A stretch of 39,667 nt of DNA from NCBI GenBank assembly GCA_004138175.2, contig RYFE02000046.1, positions 1 through 39,667 of the forward strand. Reading direction: 5' to 3'. Shown piece after piece: positions 3,531 to 39,667 of the stretch. The notes under the pieces were generated by a model. That model did no database searches. It was not told the origin of the DNA and was given only the letters and a program-made list of their open reading frames with translations. Position 1 is the stretch's first letter; every line of letters begins with the position of its first letter. Origin of the DNA: Chloroflexales bacterium ZM16-3. Lineage in GTDB: Bacteria; Chloroflexota; Chloroflexia; Chloroflexales; Chloroflexaceae. Made by a program: the position numbers and the translations under genes.

Positions 3531-3622
3531 AACGCTACAACCCTCCCTGAAGGTCGCATCTTTCAACTACTGCTCGCTAACCTCTATTGTACCCGAAGCA
3601 ATTACAGCGCGCAATAAGCATC

Positions 3623-3758
3623 ACTGAGGCACTGAGGCACTGAGGCACTGAGGCACTGAGGCGCTGAGGCACTGAGGCGCTGAGGCACTGAGGCGCTGAG
3701 GCGCTGAGGCGCTGAGGCGCTGAGTCGCTGAGGCGCTGAGGCGCTGAGGCGCTGAGGC
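3623..3758. repeat. 17-unit octamer tandem array RCTGAGGC
   Basis: Seventeen contiguous 8-bp units span 3623-3758: seven ACTGAGGC and nine GCTGAGGC, with one GCTGAGTC variant. The A and G forms alternate in the middle, which suggests stepwise expansion by slippage. The array starts 5 bp past the permease stop. A short related piece occurs at 9453-9462 after the GlsB gene. Confidence 0.95.
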
Positions 3759-3762
3759 GACT

Positions 3763-5505
3763 TCACACCTCGATCCGCTCTAGGCCACGGGTGCCCATGA
3801 TCGCGCCGCCCCAGCAGATAGCGCCGGTGAGCAGGAGGGCCAGGGTCCAGCCGAGCAGGCTGACACCGATGGCCGCCACCCCGCCGCCGACAAGGCCGCC
3901 GATAGCCGTGCCGCCTGCCACCAGCCCCACCACCAGAGTCAGATAGAGCGGGTAGAAAAGCATCCCCAGGCAGCCCGTCTGCCAGGTGGACTGCTGCTGC
4001 GGGTTCTCCCAGTTCAGCCTGGGGAAGGCCGCGCCCAGGCCCATGGTGAAGGCCGCGCAGCCGAGCCCGGCGATCATCAGCAGAAGCCACTGCTCTAGGA
4101 GGAGGGCCGGTGCGGCGTGCCGCAAGGCGGCCAGCAGGATCAGGAAGGGCGTGCCGATGGCCGGGAAGGGCAGGTAGGCCAGGGCGAACTTGCCCAGCAG
4201 GATGCGCATCGGGCTGACCGGGGCCAGCTTGAGAATCCAGAACGCCTTGCCCTCGCGACTTACGCCGGTGCCTGCCAGCGCGCTGGAGATCGAGAGGCAG
4301 ATGAAGAAGGCGATCCCCGCGCTCAGCAGGTCGCTTAGCTGGCGGATGGCAGCGGGGATCTCCGCGTCAGCCACAGGATCGGGCGGGCTGGCGATCAGCC
4401 GGAATGTCCAGATCCCGGCCAGGGCCACCGGGAAGATCAGCTGCTGGAGGTTGCGCAGGTCGCGCACGAAGAGGCGAAGATCCTTGGCGAGGATGGCGCG
4501 CGACTCGGGGGGGAGCAGGCGGGCAAATGGTGCGAGGAGATCGGCCCGCTGCCTCCTGCTCGCTGTCTCCTGCTTCCTGCCCCGCACGCGACCGCCCTGG
4601 GTGGCCATATTGCTCCAGCCGTCGTAGTAGAGCCGCTCGGCCAGCAGCATACAGCCGAGGAAGGCCCCGACCGAGGTGACGACAAACAGGCCGCCGAAGA
4701 CGATCAGGGAGAGCGCGTCGCCTGTGCCTGCGGCCACCAGTGCGCGACCGGCCCATGCCGAGGGCAGCAGCGGGAAGTTGCTGGCCAGCAGCGCCTGTAG
4801 GCTGCCGGGGCCGGTGACGACGGGGGCAACCTCGCGGGCAAACTGGCTGATCACATAGAAGGCGATGCCGATCAGGCCGCCGATCACGCTGACGATCTCG
4901 CGGGCGCGTCGGGCGGGCAGCACGCGCACCACGGCCATCACCAGCAGGGCACCGATTCCGGCGGGCAGCAGGGGCAGCAGCAGCAGTGAGAGCACCGCGC
5001 AGATGAAGTAGAGTGGGCCGTAGCCCATGCCCCGGCCGTAGCCGAGCAGCACCGGGCCGAGCAGGGCGATCAGCAGGGCGTACTGGCCGATCAGGCCGCC
5101 GAAGAACTTGACCACGAAGACGGCGCGCATGGGCACCGGGGCCACCAGCAACATGTCCATGTCGCCGGAGAGGTAGAGCGAACTGAGCAGCCCGCTGAAG
5201 CTGGAGAGCACCAGCAGCAGCAGGGCACCGAGCAGCACCACGCCGGGCAGGGCTGCCAGGTAGGGCGTAAAGTCGGTGGGCATGCCCGGGTTCTGGGCGG
5301 CCACCTCTTTCAACACGTCGGCGAACTCGGGGCTGCGGATGGCCTGCACCGCAAAGCCGACAAAGTTGTAGATCCCGAACGCGCCGAAGCCGATCAGGGC
5401 GGCCAGGAAGATCAGGCCGATCTGCCGCCGCCGCCTGCCGCGCCACAGGTCGTTGCGGGTGATCAGGAAGCGGGTGCGCACCAGCACCCAGATTGCGTTG
5501 ATCAT
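3763..5505 (-). CDS. ABC-2-type exporter permease
   Basis: This 580-residue integral membrane protein has about 12 hydrophobic segments in two blocks, separated by a charged cytoplasmic region near residues 280-340 (RVRGRKQETASRRQRADLLAP, then LPPESRAILAKDLRLFVRDLRNLQQ). That is the layout of large ABC-2-like exporter permeases whose halves each begin with a KDLR-type coupling helix. It pairs with the ATPase at 5821-6594. The substrate is unknown. The start chosen is ATG 5505 (MINAIWVLVRTRF). The in-frame extension to 5547 is encoded by a palindromic repeat element and has no ribosome site, so it is rejected. Lack of a clear Shine-Dalgarno at 5505 leaves the start slightly uncertain. Confidence 0.8.
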   Translation of the reverse strand: MINAIWVLVRTRFLITRNDLWRGRRRRQIGLIFLAALIGFGAFGIYNFVGFAVQAIRSPEFADVLKEVAAQNPGMPTDFTPYLAALPGVVLLGALLLLVLSSFSGLLSSLYLSGDMDMLLVAPVPMRAVFVVKFFGGLIGQYALLIALLGPVLLGYGRGMGYGPLYFICAVLSLLLLPLLPAGIGALLVMAVVRVLPARRAREIVSVIGGLIGIAFYVISQFAREVAPVVTGPGSLQALLASNFPLLPSAWAGRALVAAGTGDALSLIVFGGLFVVTSVGAFLGCMLLAERLYYDGWSNMATQGGRVRGRKQETASRRQRADLLAPFARLLPPESRAILAKDLRLFVRDLRNLQQLIFPVALAGIWTFRLIASPPDPVADAEIPAAIRQLSDLLSAGIAFFICLSISSALAGTGVSREGKAFWILKLAPVSPMRILLGKFALAYLPFPAIGTPFLILLAALRHAAPALLLEQWLLLMIAGLGCAAFTMGLGAAFPRLNWENPQQQSTWQTGCLGMLFYPLYLTLVVGLVAGGTAIGGLVGGGVAAIGVSLLGWTLALLLTGAICWGGAIMGTRGLERIEV

Positions 5506-5520
5506 AGGGAATGTAAAATG

Positions 5521-5634
5521 GCAGTAGAGCAGAAGTAACGCTGTCACCCTGAGCGAAGCGAAGGGTCCCGGTCGGGATTCTTCGCTTCGCTCAGAATGAC
5601 AGGACGCTTCACAGCGTTACTTCTGCGGTATTGC
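5521..5634. mobile_element. 114-bp palindromic MITE-like element, copy 1
   Basis: The element runs from GCAGTAGAGC to GGTATTGC. Its termini are near-perfect 24-bp inverted repeats (16 bp perfect: GCAGAAGTAACGCTGT). The centre is also palindromic (CTGAGCGAAGCGAA facing TTCGCTTCGCTCAG). The 8-bp direct repeat GTAAAATG borders it at 5513-5520 and 5635-5642. It encodes no protein. It lies between the exporter ATPase and permease genes. Confidence 0.88.
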
Positions 5635-5642
5635 GTAAAATG

Positions 5643-5756
5643 GCAGTAGAGCAGAAGTAACGCTGTCACCCTGAGCGAAGCGAAGGGTCCCGGTCGGGAT
5701 TCTTCGCTTCGCTCAGAATGACAGGACGCTTCACAGCGTTACTTCTGCGGTATTGC
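5643..5756. mobile_element. 114-bp palindromic MITE-like element, copy 2 (tandem)
   Basis: Identical base for base to the preceding copy, in the same orientation. It shares the GTAAAATG direct repeat at 5635-5642 and has another at 5757-5764. The perfect identity of the two 122-bp units points to a recent tandem duplication, or to insertion into the duplicated target. Confidence 0.88.
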
Positions 5757-5757
5757 G

Positions 5758-5818
5758 TAAAATGCAAAATGCAAAAATACGAGGGCGCTCACAATTTTGC
5801 ATTTTGCATTTTGCATTG
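5758..5818. repeat. Inverted TGCAAAA heptamers
   Basis: AAAATGC-type units (5760-5777) face ATTTTGC-type units (5794-5816) around a GC-rich spacer, forming an AT-rich hairpin directly downstream of the ABC ATPase stop (5821). It could act as a terminator for that gene. Confidence 0.75.
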
Positions 5819-21312: not shown

Positions 21313-21337
21313 CACACACACCAAAGCCCTGGGCTCA

Positions 21338-21449
21338 TATAGAGCATACGTAACGCTGTCACCCTGAGCGAAGCGAAGGGTCCCGGCCGGGATTCTTCGC
21401 TTCGCTCAGAATGACAGGACGCCTCACAGCGTTCCTTCTGCGGTATTGC
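21338..21449. mobile_element. Palindromic MITE-like element, copy 3
   Basis: This ~112-bp copy keeps the core (CTGAGCGAAGCGAA facing TTCGCTTCGCTCAG) and the right end GCGGTATTGC, but its left end has diverged (TATAGAGCATACG). A 12-bp direct repeat GCCCTGGGCTCA flanks it (21326-21337 and 21450-21461). The right repeat contains the guaA stop codon, so insertion took place at the 3' end of guaA without breaking it. Confidence 0.82.
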
Positions 21450-21458
21450 GCCCTGGGC

Positions 21459-23000
21459 TCACTCCCACTCGATCGTGGCCGGTGGCTTAGAGGAGATGTC
21501 ATAGACCACGCGGTTCACGCCGCTGATCTCATTGACGATCCGGCTGCTCACCTTCGCCAGCAGATCATAGGGCAGCCGCGCCCAGTCGGCGGTCATATAG
21601 TCCTCGGTCGTGATCGCGCGAATAGCGATCGTATCGGCGTAGGTGCGGTAGTCGCCCATGACGCCGACGCTCTGGACGGGCAGGAGCACGGCGAATGCCT
21701 GCTGGGTGGCGCGGTAGAGACCGGCGGCGCGCAGCTCCTCCAAGAAGATCGCATCGGCGCGGCGCAGGGTCTCCAGGCGATCCCAGCTGACCGGGCCGAG
21801 CAGGCGCACGGCCAGGCCGGGGCCGGGGAAGGGGTGTCGCCAGACCCAGTCCTCGGGCAGGCCGAGCTCAAGGCCAGCGGCGCGCACCTCGTCCTTAAAC
21901 AGATAGCGCAGGGGCTCAACAAGCTGCATCTGCATATCGGCGGGCAGGCCGCCGACATTATGGTGGGTCTTGATCGTCACCCCCTTCTTGCGGTCGGGGG
22001 CGCTGCTCTCGATCACATCGGGGTAGAGCGTGCCCTGGGCCAGAAATTTGGCGTCGCCCAGGCCACGGGCCTCGCGCTCGAAGATCCTGACAAACTTCTC
22101 GCCGATGATCTTGCGCTTGCGCTCGGGGTCGGCCACGCCCTCCAGGGCACCAATAAACTCCTCGCGGGCGTCCACAACAACCAGCGGGATGTGGAAGTGC
22201 TCACGGAAGGTGGCGATCACCTGCTCGGCCTCGCCGAGGCGCAGCAGGCCGTTATCCACAAACACGCAGGTCAGGCGCTCGCCGACAGCCCGGTGGATGA
22301 TCAGCGCGGCCACGGCCGAGTCCACGCCGCCGGAGAGCGCGCAGATCACCCGGCCCTCAGGGCCGACCTTCTCGCGCGCATGCTCGATGGCGTCGGCTAC
22401 AAAGTTCGCTGGCTGCCAGGCCGAGTCGGCCCCGCAGATCGTGTGCAGGAAGTTGCCGAGAATGGCCTTGCCCTGAGACGTATGCACCACCTCGGGGTGA
22501 AACTGGACGCCGTACCAGCGCCGCTCATCGTCGCCCATGGCGGCGAAGGGGGTGGAGGGGTTGCTGGCCAGGGTGCGGAAGCCAGGAGGCAGCGACTCGA
22601 TCCGGTCGCCGTGGCTCATCCAGACCATCTGGGAAAGCGGGGTGCCGGTGAAGAGCGAGTGCTCGCCGGTGAGCGACACATCAGCGGGGCCGAACTCGCG
22701 GCCCTCGGGGCTGAGCACCACGCCGCCGAGGGCGTAGCTGATCAGCTGCATGCCGTAGCAGATGCCGAGGACGGGCAGGCCAGAGGTGGGCAGCCACTCC
22801 GGCATCTGCGGGGCGCCGGGCTCATAGACGCTGGCCGGGCCGCCGGAGAGGATCACGCCGAGGGGGTTGAGCGCGCGCACCTGAGCCTCGGGCGCGTCGT
22901 GGGGCAGCAGCTCGCTGTAGACGCCCAGCTCGCGCACGCGGCGCACAATTAGCTGGGCCGTCTGCGAGCCAAAGTCGAGCACCGGGATACTGTAAGACAT
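21459..23000 (-). CDS. guaA: GMP synthase (glutamine-hydrolysing)
   Basis: GuaA converts XMP to GMP with glutamine and ATP in purine synthesis. The 513-residue protein has the class I glutamine amidotransferase domain first, with nucleophile Cys81 in [16 protein letters not shown] carrying the catalytic His and the following Glu, and SGGPASVYE. The ATP pyrophosphatase domain follows, with the PP-loop [12 protein letters not shown] near residue 230. The C-terminal dimerisation domain has [19 protein letters not shown] and the end [27 protein letters not shown] 23000 is chosen with GAGGAG upstream. No purine riboswitch was recognised ahead of it. The stop codon lies inside the direct repeat made by an inserted element. 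Confidence 0.98.
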
Positions 23001-23089: not shown

Positions 23090-23476
23090 CTAGCTCGCGG
23101 TGACGAGGCGCAGCCTTAGCGAACTAAAGCTGATCACCCGCTCGGGATCGGGCTCACCGACGACATGGGCCGCCAGTTCGAATTCGGGCGTGATCACCAC
23201 CGAGTTATCACCGCCATAAGCGTTCGGCTCATAGCCGTCGGCGTTCCAGTCGTTATGCCACTCGCTGCCATTAAAAAGGTAGCGGTACTGAAATGCGTGG
23301 CCTGCGTCGAGGTCAAGGGTCACCATCCACCCCATCTCGGTCTGGCGCATCGGCGTAGCCCGCTCATCCCAGTTATTAAAGTCACCCACAAGAAAGATAG
23401 TGTCGGCCCAGATAGCGGATGGAAGTGCGAACGAGACCCGGACTTTGCCGGGCTGGCCGGGCATCTTTGTGATCAT
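23090..23476 (-). CDS. Stand-alone CBM48/isoamylase-N-like domain protein
   Basis: This 128-residue protein is almost entirely one carbohydrate-binding module of family 48 or AMPK-beta type. Typical motifs are [27 protein letters not shown] (strand plus GdFNnW), [21 protein letters not shown] and [22 protein letters not shown]. Trp and Asn/Asp residues of the glycan-binding face are present. No catalytic domain, signal peptide or partner glycogen gene is adjacent. Such single-domain proteins may bind glycogen or regulate its enzymes; the role here is unknown. ATG 23476 is chosen because GAAGGAG lies 9 nt upstream. A palindromic element lies 95 bp upstream in its promoter area. Confidence 0.85.
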
Positions 23477-23571
23477 TGGCAGCACTCCTTCGATGCCATG
23501 TTACCAACGTCATTGTTGGCAAGTTAGGGCGGATTATAGCACACCGCCCCGCGCGGGTGAAGTGGTACTTC

Positions 23572-23686
23572 GCAGTAGAGCAAAAGGAACGCTGTCACCC
23601 TGAGCGAAGCGAAGGGTCCCGGCCGGGATTCTTCGCTTCGCTCAGAATGACAAGTAAATACCACAGCGTTCCTTTTGCGGTACTGC
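23572..23686. mobile_element. Palindromic MITE-like element, copy 4
   Basis: This 115-bp copy starts GCAGTAGAGC and ends GGTACTGC, with 22 of 24 terminal bases complementary. The 8-bp direct repeat GGTACTTC lies at 23564-23571 and 23687-23694. Compared with copy 1, both arms changed together (GCAGAAGTAACG to GCAAAAGGAACG), so pairing is kept. It lies upstream of the CBM48 gene. Confidence 0.88.
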
Positions 23687-23783
23687 GGTACTTCATACAC
23701 CTGGGGGCCATGGCACATACGTACTGTAATCGAGAGACATACCATCAGAGAAGCAAGGAATGGGCCAGGAATATATTGAGATC

Positions 23784-23958
23784 CAGGGCATGTGCGAAGT
23801 CCTGAGTGCCCCACGGCTGGCGACTGAAGTCGCGCCGTCGGGGCGCGTTGCGCCGGGCGTCGGCCTGCGCCGACGCCGGAACCGCCCGCGCAGGCGGGCG
23901 GCTGGCCGCAGGCCCCCGCGACGCGGCTTCAGCCGCCAGCGACGTTGCACATGCCCTG
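23784..23958. repeat. 175-bp long imperfect palindrome
   Basis: The ends CAGGGCATGTGC (23784-23795) and GCACATGCCCTG (23947-23958) are perfect inverted repeats. Inside, GCTGGCGACTGAAGTCGC on the left faces the complement of CGACGCGGCTTCAGCCGCC on the right. The centre holds two more GC palindromes (CGTCGGCCTGCGCCGACG and CCGCCCGCGCAGGCGGGCGG). No coding potential was recognised. The 551-bp gap 23477-24027 holds this element and MITE copy 4 and nothing else recognisable. Confidence 0.75.
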
Positions 23959-29154: not shown

Positions 29155-29187
29155 TGGTGTTCCTGTTATCTATCAGGCATGATGTAG

Positions 29188-29273
29188 GGGCGCCCCTCGT
29201 GGGCGCCCCTTGTGGGCGCCCCTCGTGGGCGCCCCTTGTGGGTGCCCCTTGTGGGCGCCCACGAGGGGCGCCC
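29188..29273. repeat. 13-bp tandem repeat GGCGCCCCTYGTG with inverted end
   Basis: Five units (29189-29253) alternate C and T at one site, with one GGTGCC variant. The array ends with CGAGGGGCGCCC (29262-29273), the inverted copy of the start (29188-29199). It fills the space between cpaE and cpaF-2 and touches the cpaE stop (29274-29276). It is a relative of the GTAGGGGCG palindromes. Confidence 0.85.
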
Positions 29274-30533
29274 TTACGCCATAGCAGGCGCGGCGGGCCG
29301 ATCGCCCTGGAGCCCGGCGACAAGCCGACGCCAGGGGCTTATGCGCGGCATGGGCAGGCTAGGCGTCAGCCCGATGCGGGCGCAGAGCGCCTCTGTCACC
29401 TGGTGAGTGGCCTGGGTGAAGGGGCTGTGCGGCCCGAGGTCGAGCATGGAGATATAGCCATCGTACTCGTCGGCCATGCTGGCCAGGCGCGGCGAGCGGG
29501 GCAGGGTGCCAAGGGGGCTCACCTGCGGGTAGCGGCGGGCGAACAGGCTGGAAACATCACTCACGCTGGTCGTCACGCCGCGCTCGGGCTCCATAAAGAG
29601 CAGCGTGCAGTGGTCGAGCCGCTCGGGGGCGTGCTCGCGGAAGTGGTCGAGCATATGGCCGACGCCCATGCGCTCGCGGGCACCGGGGGGGGCTGGCAGG
29701 ATGACGGTGCCGCCCTGCTGGAGCACGTGGGTGGCATAGGGCCGACGTAGGTAGTCGGGCGGGGTGTCGATCAGCACCAGATCGTAGCCCTCGGCGGCGG
29801 CCACGCCCTCGAAGAAGCCCTGCCAGTCGGGCAGGCGCACATCGTTCTCGGCGCGGGCGACGCTGTGCGAGCCGATCAGGAAGTCGATCTCGCCCCAGCT
29901 CTCGCCGCCGCCCCTGGTGTGCTCGGGCGTGTAGATAAATGGCCGGATGCCAGTGGGGTTCCAGTGGGCTGGGCCGCGCTGGATGAGGTGCAGGTAGGAG
30001 GGCGCGCTGGAGGGCACGCGGAAGGCCGGCACCAGCCCCGGGTTCGAGATGTCGCTGTCCCAGACCAGCACGCGCAGGCCGCGACGGCGCAGGCCCTCGG
30101 CCAGCACACAGGTGGCGAAGGTCTTGCCGATGCCGCCCTTGGCCGCGCCGACGGCCACCACCGGCAGGCGCCCGCCGCCGCCGGAGGCGCTCAGGCCAAG
30201 CTGCTCGCCGATCCATGCGGCCACAGCATCGGGGTCGGCCTGGCTGGTTGCGGGGATGCCGGCGCTCTGGGCATCGCTCAGGGCGGCGCGGGCCGGGCCG
30301 TAGAGGTTGAGCAGCACGCGCACCCCCGCCTGCTGGGCCATGGCCGCGCTGCGCCAGATGTCGGGCAGCGGCACGCCCCGGCTATCGTCCATGTAGAGCG
30401 CGTCGGGCGGGCGGTCGCCGCCCAGCAGGCGGTGGACCTGGTCGAGCCGCGAGGGTGCGAGCACGGCCAGGTCGCGCAGGGACTCGGCCCGCGCCTGGAG
30501 GCCGTCGAGGGCGCTGAAGATCACGAGCTCCAT
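29274..30533 (-). CDS. cpaE: CpaE-like MinD/ParA ATPase
   Basis: This 419-residue protein has an N-terminal receiver-like or linker domain (~1-110, MELVIFSALDG then AALSDAQSAGIPATSQAD) and a SIMIBI ATPase domain. The deviant Walker A KGGIGKT is at 132-138, switch I includes WDSDISNPGLVPAF near 160, and the hydrophobic Walker B is YDLVLIDTPPDYLR near 270. CpaE/TadZ proteins position the Tad machine at the cell pole or membrane. AAGGAG lies before ATG 30533. It sits between the two CpaF-type ATPase genes. The stop codon abuts a 13-bp repeat array. Confidence 0.85.
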   Translation of the reverse strand: MELVIFSALDGLQARAESLRDLAVLAPSRLDQVHRLLGGDRPPDALYMDDSRGVPLPDIWRSAAMAQQAGVRVLLNLYGPARAALSDAQSAGIPATSQADPDAVAAWIGEQLGLSASGGGGRLPVVAVGAAKGGIGKTFATCVLAEGLRRRGLRVLVWDSDISNPGLVPAFRVPSSAPSYLHLIQRGPAHWNPTGIRPFIYTPEHTRGGGESWGEIDFLIGSHSVARAENDVRLPDWQGFFEGVAAAEGYDLVLIDTPPDYLRRPYATHVLQQGGTVILPAPPGARERMGVGHMLDHFREHAPERLDHCTLLFMEPERGVTTSVSDVSSLFARRYPQVSPLGTLPRSPRLASMADEYDGYISMLDLGPHSPFTQATHQVTEALCARIGLTPSLPMPRISPWRRLVAGLQGDRPAAPAMA

Positions 30534-30583
30534 AGGGGTTCTCCTTGTTGCGTAAGAGTATTCATGGTGTGGAATGGACTGGG

Positions 30584-30630
30584 CGGCCCTCAACCCCAGC
30601 CCCTCTCCCGCTGCGGCGGGAGAGGGGAGT
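30584..30630. repeat. CCCCTCTCCCGC hairpin repeat, copy 1
   Basis: CCCCTCTCCCGC (30600-30611) pairs with GCGGGAGAGGGG (30616-30627) around TGCG, and the copy carries the left arm GGCCCTCAACCCCAGC. The same module recurs at 31934-31983. It lies between cpaF-1 and cpaE and may control relative expression. Confidence 0.8.
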
Positions 30631-30655
30631 CAAGCTTATGGGGCGATGATCATCG

Positions 30656-31890: not shown

Positions 31891-31983
31891 TGGGAAGGCC
31901 CTCACCCCCAGCCCCTCTCCCGCTGCGAGGCTCTGGAAGGCCCTCACCCCCAGCCCCTCTCCCGCTGCGGCGGGAGAGGGGAG
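31891..31983. repeat. Two copies of the CCCTCACCCCCAGCCCCTCTCCC module
   Basis: Copy A (31891-31931) lacks the right arm of the hairpin. Copy B (31934-31983) has it: CCCCTCTCCCGC pairs with 31970-31981. They share 35 near-identical bases. They fill the gap between cpaB and cpaF-1. Confidence 0.85.
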
Positions 31984-32002
31984 TCCATCTTTGAATGTCT
32001 CG

Positions 32003-39625: not shown

Positions 39626-39667
39626 GCAGTACCGCAGAAGTAACGCTGTGAGGCGTCCTGTCATTCT
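39626..39667. mobile_element. Palindromic MITE-like element, copy 5 (cut by window end)
   Basis: Begins GCAGTACCGCAGAAGTAACG and continues to the window edge in the opposite orientation to the other copies. The first 42 bases match the reverse complement of the right end of copy 1/copy 3. The preceding 8 bases are CAATAGAG, which should recur just beyond the element if the 8-bp repeat rule holds. Confidence 0.85.

Follow-up and report, generated by a model that had tools for sequence, protein, structure and literature searches.

The 115-bp element at positions 23572-23686 of the window (the whole 39,667-nt stretch of DNA analysed here) is very probably a MITE that carries a dimer of REP-type hairpins as its cargo, and whose arms are alike as two ends serving one IS transposase. 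Its anatomy, the flanking duplications, a nested insertion, an IS with related ends, mismatches between the arms and covariation within the cargo were all observed directly. The arms are those of an ordinary MITE, and it is the interior that forms an interesting composite: genuine compensatory change, which the sequence-only reading had placed in the arms, is located in the inner hairpin modules.

Anatomy of the element and other repeats in the window

The element is bordered by an 8-bp repeat, GGTACTTC, at 23564-23571 and 23687-23694, as the sequence-only reading had described; its assignment as a target-site duplication rests on the sequence and on the occurrence of 8-bp duplications throughout the family. 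Each end is a 24-bp terminal inverted repeat, GCAGTAGAGCAAAAGGAACGCTGT on the forward strand (23572-23595) and GCAGTACCGCAAAAGGAACGCTGT on the reverse strand (23663-23686), with 22/24 identity between the two. The ends enclose two hairpin modules, each with a TGTC tag: module 1 (A-CC-CT-GA-GC-GAA-GC-GA-AG-GG-T; 23593-23617, forward strand), whose tag overlaps the final three bases of the left terminal repeat, and the inverted module 2 (A-TT-CT-GA-GC-GAA-GC-GA-AG-AA-T; 23628-23652, reverse strand). A search of positions 23400-23850 against Rfam returned nothing above the gathering score, the best match reaching 27 bits compared with 99.

Other copies were distinguished in the window. Two identical 114-bp copies stand in tandem on the forward strand (5521-5634 and 5643-5756, within 5513-5764), with GTAAAATG before, between and after them, and in another forward-strand copy (21336-21449) the left end is decayed and a clean 8-bp duplication is missing. 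Identity between the 24-bp ends is 21/24 in the copies at 5521 and 5643 and 16/24 in that at 21336, and positions 7 and 8 of the ends are unmatched in the copies at 23572, 5521 and 5643. The copy at 21336 is flanked by a 12-bp direct repeat, GCCCTGGGCTCA (21326-21337 and 21450-21461), where the usual duplication is 8 bp, and this repeat overlaps the decayed left end. A reverse-strand copy at 39626-39667 is cut by the contig end, so that what remains of it is a single end repeat and the beginning of a module; the contig probably stops here at an assembly break within the repeat.

The window also contains repeats of other kinds: a tandem array of the octamers CACTGAGG/CGCTGAGG (3598-3781) where a long minus-strand frame ends, inverted GGGCGCCC-rich repeats with 43-nt arms separated by 18 nt (29179-29282), and a short dispersed repeat with CCCAGCCCCTCTCCCGCTGCGGCGGGAGAGGGG (30579-30637 and 31891-31991), which is partly duplicated at the second site.

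Size of the family and sampling of copies

Within the 6.27-Mb genome of the Chloroflexota bacterium from which the window comes (the home genome), the arm motif gave 218 matches per strand at up to two mismatches, compared with 1 and 4 for the reversed control. The arm repeat is far beyond chance, and the genome holds roughly 200 copies if most ends are paired. We collected 158 copies, 116 from the home genome and 42 from relatives of the same genus. The former came from the window and 60 stretches (together 1.14 of the 6.27 Mb) and from four further loci, a sample picked mostly around arm matches and therefore not random. Arm statistics were based on the 112 canonical copies (length 112-118 bp, GAGCG in the core), of which 84 belong to the home genome and 28 to the same genus; the remaining 46 (longer, shorter, decayed, hybrid or chance pairs) were dropped. 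Duplications were counted in 156 copies, two of the 158 having no flanks. Length is 114-115 bp in 110/112 canonical copies, the ends are 24 bp long, and short frames cross the element.

An exact long pattern of the element had no match in a genome-contig database whose coverage may leave out near records. Searching plasmids with the core yielded no record covering 80% of it and 73 records with partial matches (best E value 0.008, Calothrix). Among the papers covered by literature searches using the module string and the topic, from which most subscription papers are absent, no title described the element or the module.

Evidence for transposition

The mobile-like nature proposed for the element was borne out by target duplications, a nested insertion and an IS with related ends. 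An exact 8-bp flanking duplication was present in 92 of 156 copies, and one matching at 7/8 or better in 116; the control, taken at offsets of 1-8, gave 0-9 of 156. The other 40 copies had no duplication at 7/8 or better. Duplicated targets begin and end with C or G in 104 of the 116 cases and are mostly A/T in between, giving the consensus S-W6-S, and the targets behind this consensus (116 duplications) sit in stretches of 65% G+C. At one locus (L112) a copy is nested in another copy and has duplicated CTGTGAAG. Two other loci (L081 and L043) contain the uninterrupted host sequence without any difference, and three further places contain it with a single mismatch, so that the nested copy represents an insertion for which the empty site is available.

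Neighbouring elements lay exactly 8 bp apart in 8 of the 16 gaps of up to 60 bp (window position 5635; L032:5539, L058:8923, L062:3684, L067:17536, L090:9757, L013:1506 and L177:413). In seven of these eight the spacer is itself a flanking duplication, including cases with unlike elements and a MITE next to an IS (L062). Such spacing suggests insertion beside an existing end, with reuse of its target.

The partner IS

An IS with related ends was found in the home genome (L062:3692-5495, 1804 bp). It has one open frame, with 587 residues within the ends; the listed ORF, of 607 amino acids, starts upstream of the element. Alignment with copies from the genus showed that it lacks their start region, and it may therefore be inactive. 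It also has no matching duplication, and its ends agree with the commonest MITE end at 20 of 24 positions. A second home-genome copy (C76) is split over two frames and also lacks a matching duplication. The home genome yielded no autonomous copy that is clearly intact, which slightly lowers our confidence in the proposed explanation. Copies that look intact from their sequence occur in one relative of the genus. They encode homologues of 607 (L102) and 603 (L106) amino acids, each 73% identical to the L062 protein, in 1.9-kb elements with exact 8-bp duplications (CTAATTAT and AGTTTTAG). Matches to the IS were obtained in 5 of the 21 genomes searched, the home genome included, two of them weak (G003 and G004).

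The IS protein matched PF00872 (Transposase_mut, Mutator-type) over 46 residues with 23.7 bits, above the cut-off of 21, and scored 27.4 bits against NCBIfam IS256, far below the cut-off of 150, so that its membership of IS256 is weak. The structure predicted for the transposase from three sequences had a mean pLDDT of 40.5, too poor to place catalytic residues.

The ends of the IS and of the MITEs are closely related. An IS remnant in L112 has a 5' end identical at 24/24 positions to the commonest right end of home-genome MITEs (46/84), and the L102 IS has a left end that agrees at 23/24 positions with the right end of the subfamily of the 23572 copy. In the four IS with both ends read, end-to-end identity was 22, 21, 23 and 23 of 24, and position 12 of the repeat agreed between the ends in every one. 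The arms of canonical MITEs agree on average at 20.4 of 24 positions in the home genome and at 19.8 in the relatives. Because IS ends lie 1.8-2.0 kb apart, their similarity is unlikely to stem from a snap-back hairpin, and the agreement at position 12 points to end recognition.

Variation of the arms

The sequence-only reading had started from a symmetric difference at two sites, which is correct: each arm of the copy at 23572 contains GCAAAAGGAACGCTGT, and each arm of those at 5521-5634 and 5643-5756 contains GCAGAAGTAACGCTGT. The two sites are positions 12 and 16 of the 24-bp end repeat. From this it was concluded that pairing of the ends matters, with the outer arms being selected as a cruciform substrate or an RNA hairpin and a change in one arm compensated in the other. 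The strong folding of the whole element agrees with such selection (z approximately -12 on both strands of the 23572 copy, -11.9; -10.0 and -7.1 for two other copies), and so does an association between the arms at position 12. The family as a whole, however, makes this explanation highly unlikely. The 112 canonical copies comprise 58 distinct arm pairs, and the arms are mismatched at positions 7 and 8 in 95 copies each and at position 12 in 62. Of the 84 canonical copies of the home genome, 53 have arms differing at one or both of positions 12 and 16. The commonest class (39/84) is itself mismatched, its position 12 being T in the left arm and G in the right. The AG/AG type of the 23572 copy accounts for 19 copies and GT/GT for 11, and two copies are hybrids that combine an AG arm with a GT arm. 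Moreover, the ends of the IS, separated by at least 1.8 kb, match as well as or better than the arms of the MITEs.

Changes in the two arms were also placed on trees built without the tested site, which is a weak test with about 115 positions and 69 unique copies. Position 12 changed 13 times on the left and 11 times on the right; four of these changes fell on a shared branch, three of them being identical on the two sides and thus in keeping with pairing. The left position 12 shared 0-3 branches with nine other right positions tested. Position 16 changed four times on the left and eight times on the right with no shared change, which speaks against pairing, and the other eight positions gave one identical two-sided change, at position 7. 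Mutual information between left and right position 12 was 0.51, compared with at most 0.14 between left position 12 and any other right position. At position 16 it was weak (0.16), and left position 16 had a higher value with right position 4 (0.20). The arms thus change mostly independently, which is the pattern that the sequence-only reading had named as speaking against it, and a residual left-right association at position 12 is the part of its expectation that stands. This association could hold some pairing constraint.

Agreement between the arms might also arise by copying from one arm to the other, through gene conversion or template switching on a snapped-back strand, as the sequence-only reading had itself considered. 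Arms identical over all 24 bp do exist (7/116 copies of the home genome and 2/42 of the relatives), some of them having CCGC, the 'right' type, at the left end as well, and positions 12 and 16 can move as a block. Identical arms in only 9 of 158 copies mean, however, that the process cannot be frequent, and side-specific bases persist at positions 7-8 (GA on the left and CC on the right in the common classes). We regard copying between arms as rather unlikely to be the cause, although it is compatible with two ends that serve one transposase.

Inner hairpin modules

The interior of the element consists of two inverted copies of the module TGTC-A-XX-CT-GA-GC-GNA-GC-GA-AG-X'X'-T. In stretches of the home genome, 98 of 113 pairs of close module neighbours are inverted, with starts 33 bp apart. 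Inverted pairs with starts at a distance of 46-47 bp, and so with a longer spacer, were noticed in L191, in contigs 1, 34 and 85 of G001 and, in the home genome, on contig 1 (at 223117 and 361810) and contig 34 (at 74045). No MITE ends were visible in the flanking sequence inspected for the L191 pair.

XX and X'X' are complementary in 213 of 222 modules of the home-genome stretches (99 TT/AA, 90 CC/GG and 24 CG/CG) and in 70 of 75 modules of the relatives, both counts being inflated by copy number. Among the matches listed, complementarity was found in 41 of 47 modules within the genus, in 93 of 103 outside it (27 Chloroflexota genomes; shuffled mean 24.9, maximum 41) and in 98 of 100 from IMG/VR (80 loci read; shuffled mean 40, maximum 59), the last with six pair types. 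The module is a short hairpin with a strongly covarying stem. It occurs on IMG/VR contigs and, when sought with XX left free, in 43 of the 301 Chloroflexota genomes that were sampled.

The GA/GA positions and the outer bases of the loop were fixed by the search patterns, and their constancy is therefore not evidence in those searches. The middle base of the loop was left free, and among the 100 IMG/VR matches listed it was C in 32, A in 30, G in 20 and T in 13, the other five having a different first base. When the whole triplet was left free in the home-genome stretches, 147 of 153 modules had GNA, compared with 7% of background triplets; in the relatives the background (5 of 9 triplets GNA) is too small for use. 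The tag is TGTC in 157/166 modules of the home genome and 70/72 of the relatives, and TGTC or CGTC in 95/103 IMG/VR modules among the matches listed. DNA and RNA energy models predict the same hairpin, and by the DNA model a single module is little more stable than its shuffles (z -1.20 and -0.21).

The modules themselves might have come first, in which case a HUH (RAYT-like) enzyme would have spread the REP dimers and the arms outside them would be incidental flanking palindromes. The module does occur elsewhere without these ends, and it shares the TGTC tag with CGTC REPs as these are described in the accessible part of PMC3733652. Against this, it is the outer ends, and not the module, with which the duplication boundaries and the nested insertion coincide. 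A module was found at 1 of 56 Y1_Tnp (RAYT) loci, in the module-rich home genome, which by estimate is not above chance. Y1_Tnp was rejected as the mover of the module on this count, and we consider a module-first origin very improbable.

Proposed mechanism

One transposase acting at two ends would explain the arms better than pairing does. According to this explanation, the transposase of the IS would bind the 24-bp terminal repeat at each end and mobilise the MITE in trans, and the element would be inserted into an 8-bp S-W6-S target, which becomes the flanking duplication. A single transposase has to accept both arms, and the two would derive from the opposite ends of an IS, which would account for their agreement. 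Amplification of a few source variants could then produce whole subfamilies with a common arm type. Copying between arms perhaps helped their agreement, and pairing would not be needed. The cargo would be a head-on pair of REP-type hairpin modules, with stems kept by compensatory change, probably because the single strand, as DNA or RNA, is recognised or functional once folded. The case illustrates a trap, in that symmetric changes at the ends of a mobile element mimic base-pair covariation when one transposase serving both ends can suffice.

Comparison with known systems

Target duplications of the IS256 family are 8-9 bp long. The partner IS resembles IS256 and other Mutator-type (PF00872) elements in its match to PF00872 over the cut-off, its ends of about 24 bp and its 8-bp duplication; it differs in its protein of about 600 amino acids with an N-terminal cysteine pattern, which scores far below the NCBIfam IS256 cut-off. 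The sequence GC-GNA-GC forms unusually stable DNA minihairpins, d(GCGNAGC). The module has this GC-GNA-GC at its loop, where each of the four bases occurs at N, while the known minihairpins were studied as oligonucleotides.

Bacterial MITEs such as NEMIS, RUP and Nezha, as portrayed in the accessible part of PMC3733652, are similar to the element in size (70-300 bp), terminal repeats (15-30 bp), lack of coding capacity, target duplication and the presence, within the same genome, of an IS whose ends are related. The element differs from them by its cargo, an inverted pair of REP-type modules, and by its preference for S-W6-S targets.

The module fits the CGTC-tagged REP superfamily in its tag and general form. 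For this superfamily the same part of that source (PMC3733652) gives a stem of 8-9 bp with A-T as first and second pairs, bearing a tag (CGTC, TGTC or CCTC) at one end, and a loop of 4-5 bases. Shared features are the TGTC/CGTC tag, a short palindrome, complementary changes in the stem and the frequent occurrence as dimers (PMC3733652, accessible part). The first stem pair of the module is A-T (fixed by the search pattern) and the second varies (T-A or C-G); by description, and not by published consensus sequences, the module differs from CGTC-tagged REPs in its 3-base GNA loop and the GA/GA mismatches that interrupt its stem.

As far as it was accessible, PMC3733652 assigns no dedicated transposase to CGTC-tagged REPs and leaves open how they multiply, and the element offers a route by which REP hairpins without a transposase of their own could do so. 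We tentatively propose, as a possibility that falls somewhat short of probable, that REP-type (CGTC-tagged) hairpins have spread in some lineages as dimers packed between the MITE ends of a DDE transposon, the overlap of the TGTC tag with the transposon end suggesting the point of fusion, and that the GNA-loop hairpin is kept by selection on the folded single strand. REP elements inside longer palindromes are described for A. variabilis, T. roseum and H. neapolitanus (PMC3733652, in the part available); the outer palindrome found here differs in being formed by the ends of a transposable element that has a related IS.
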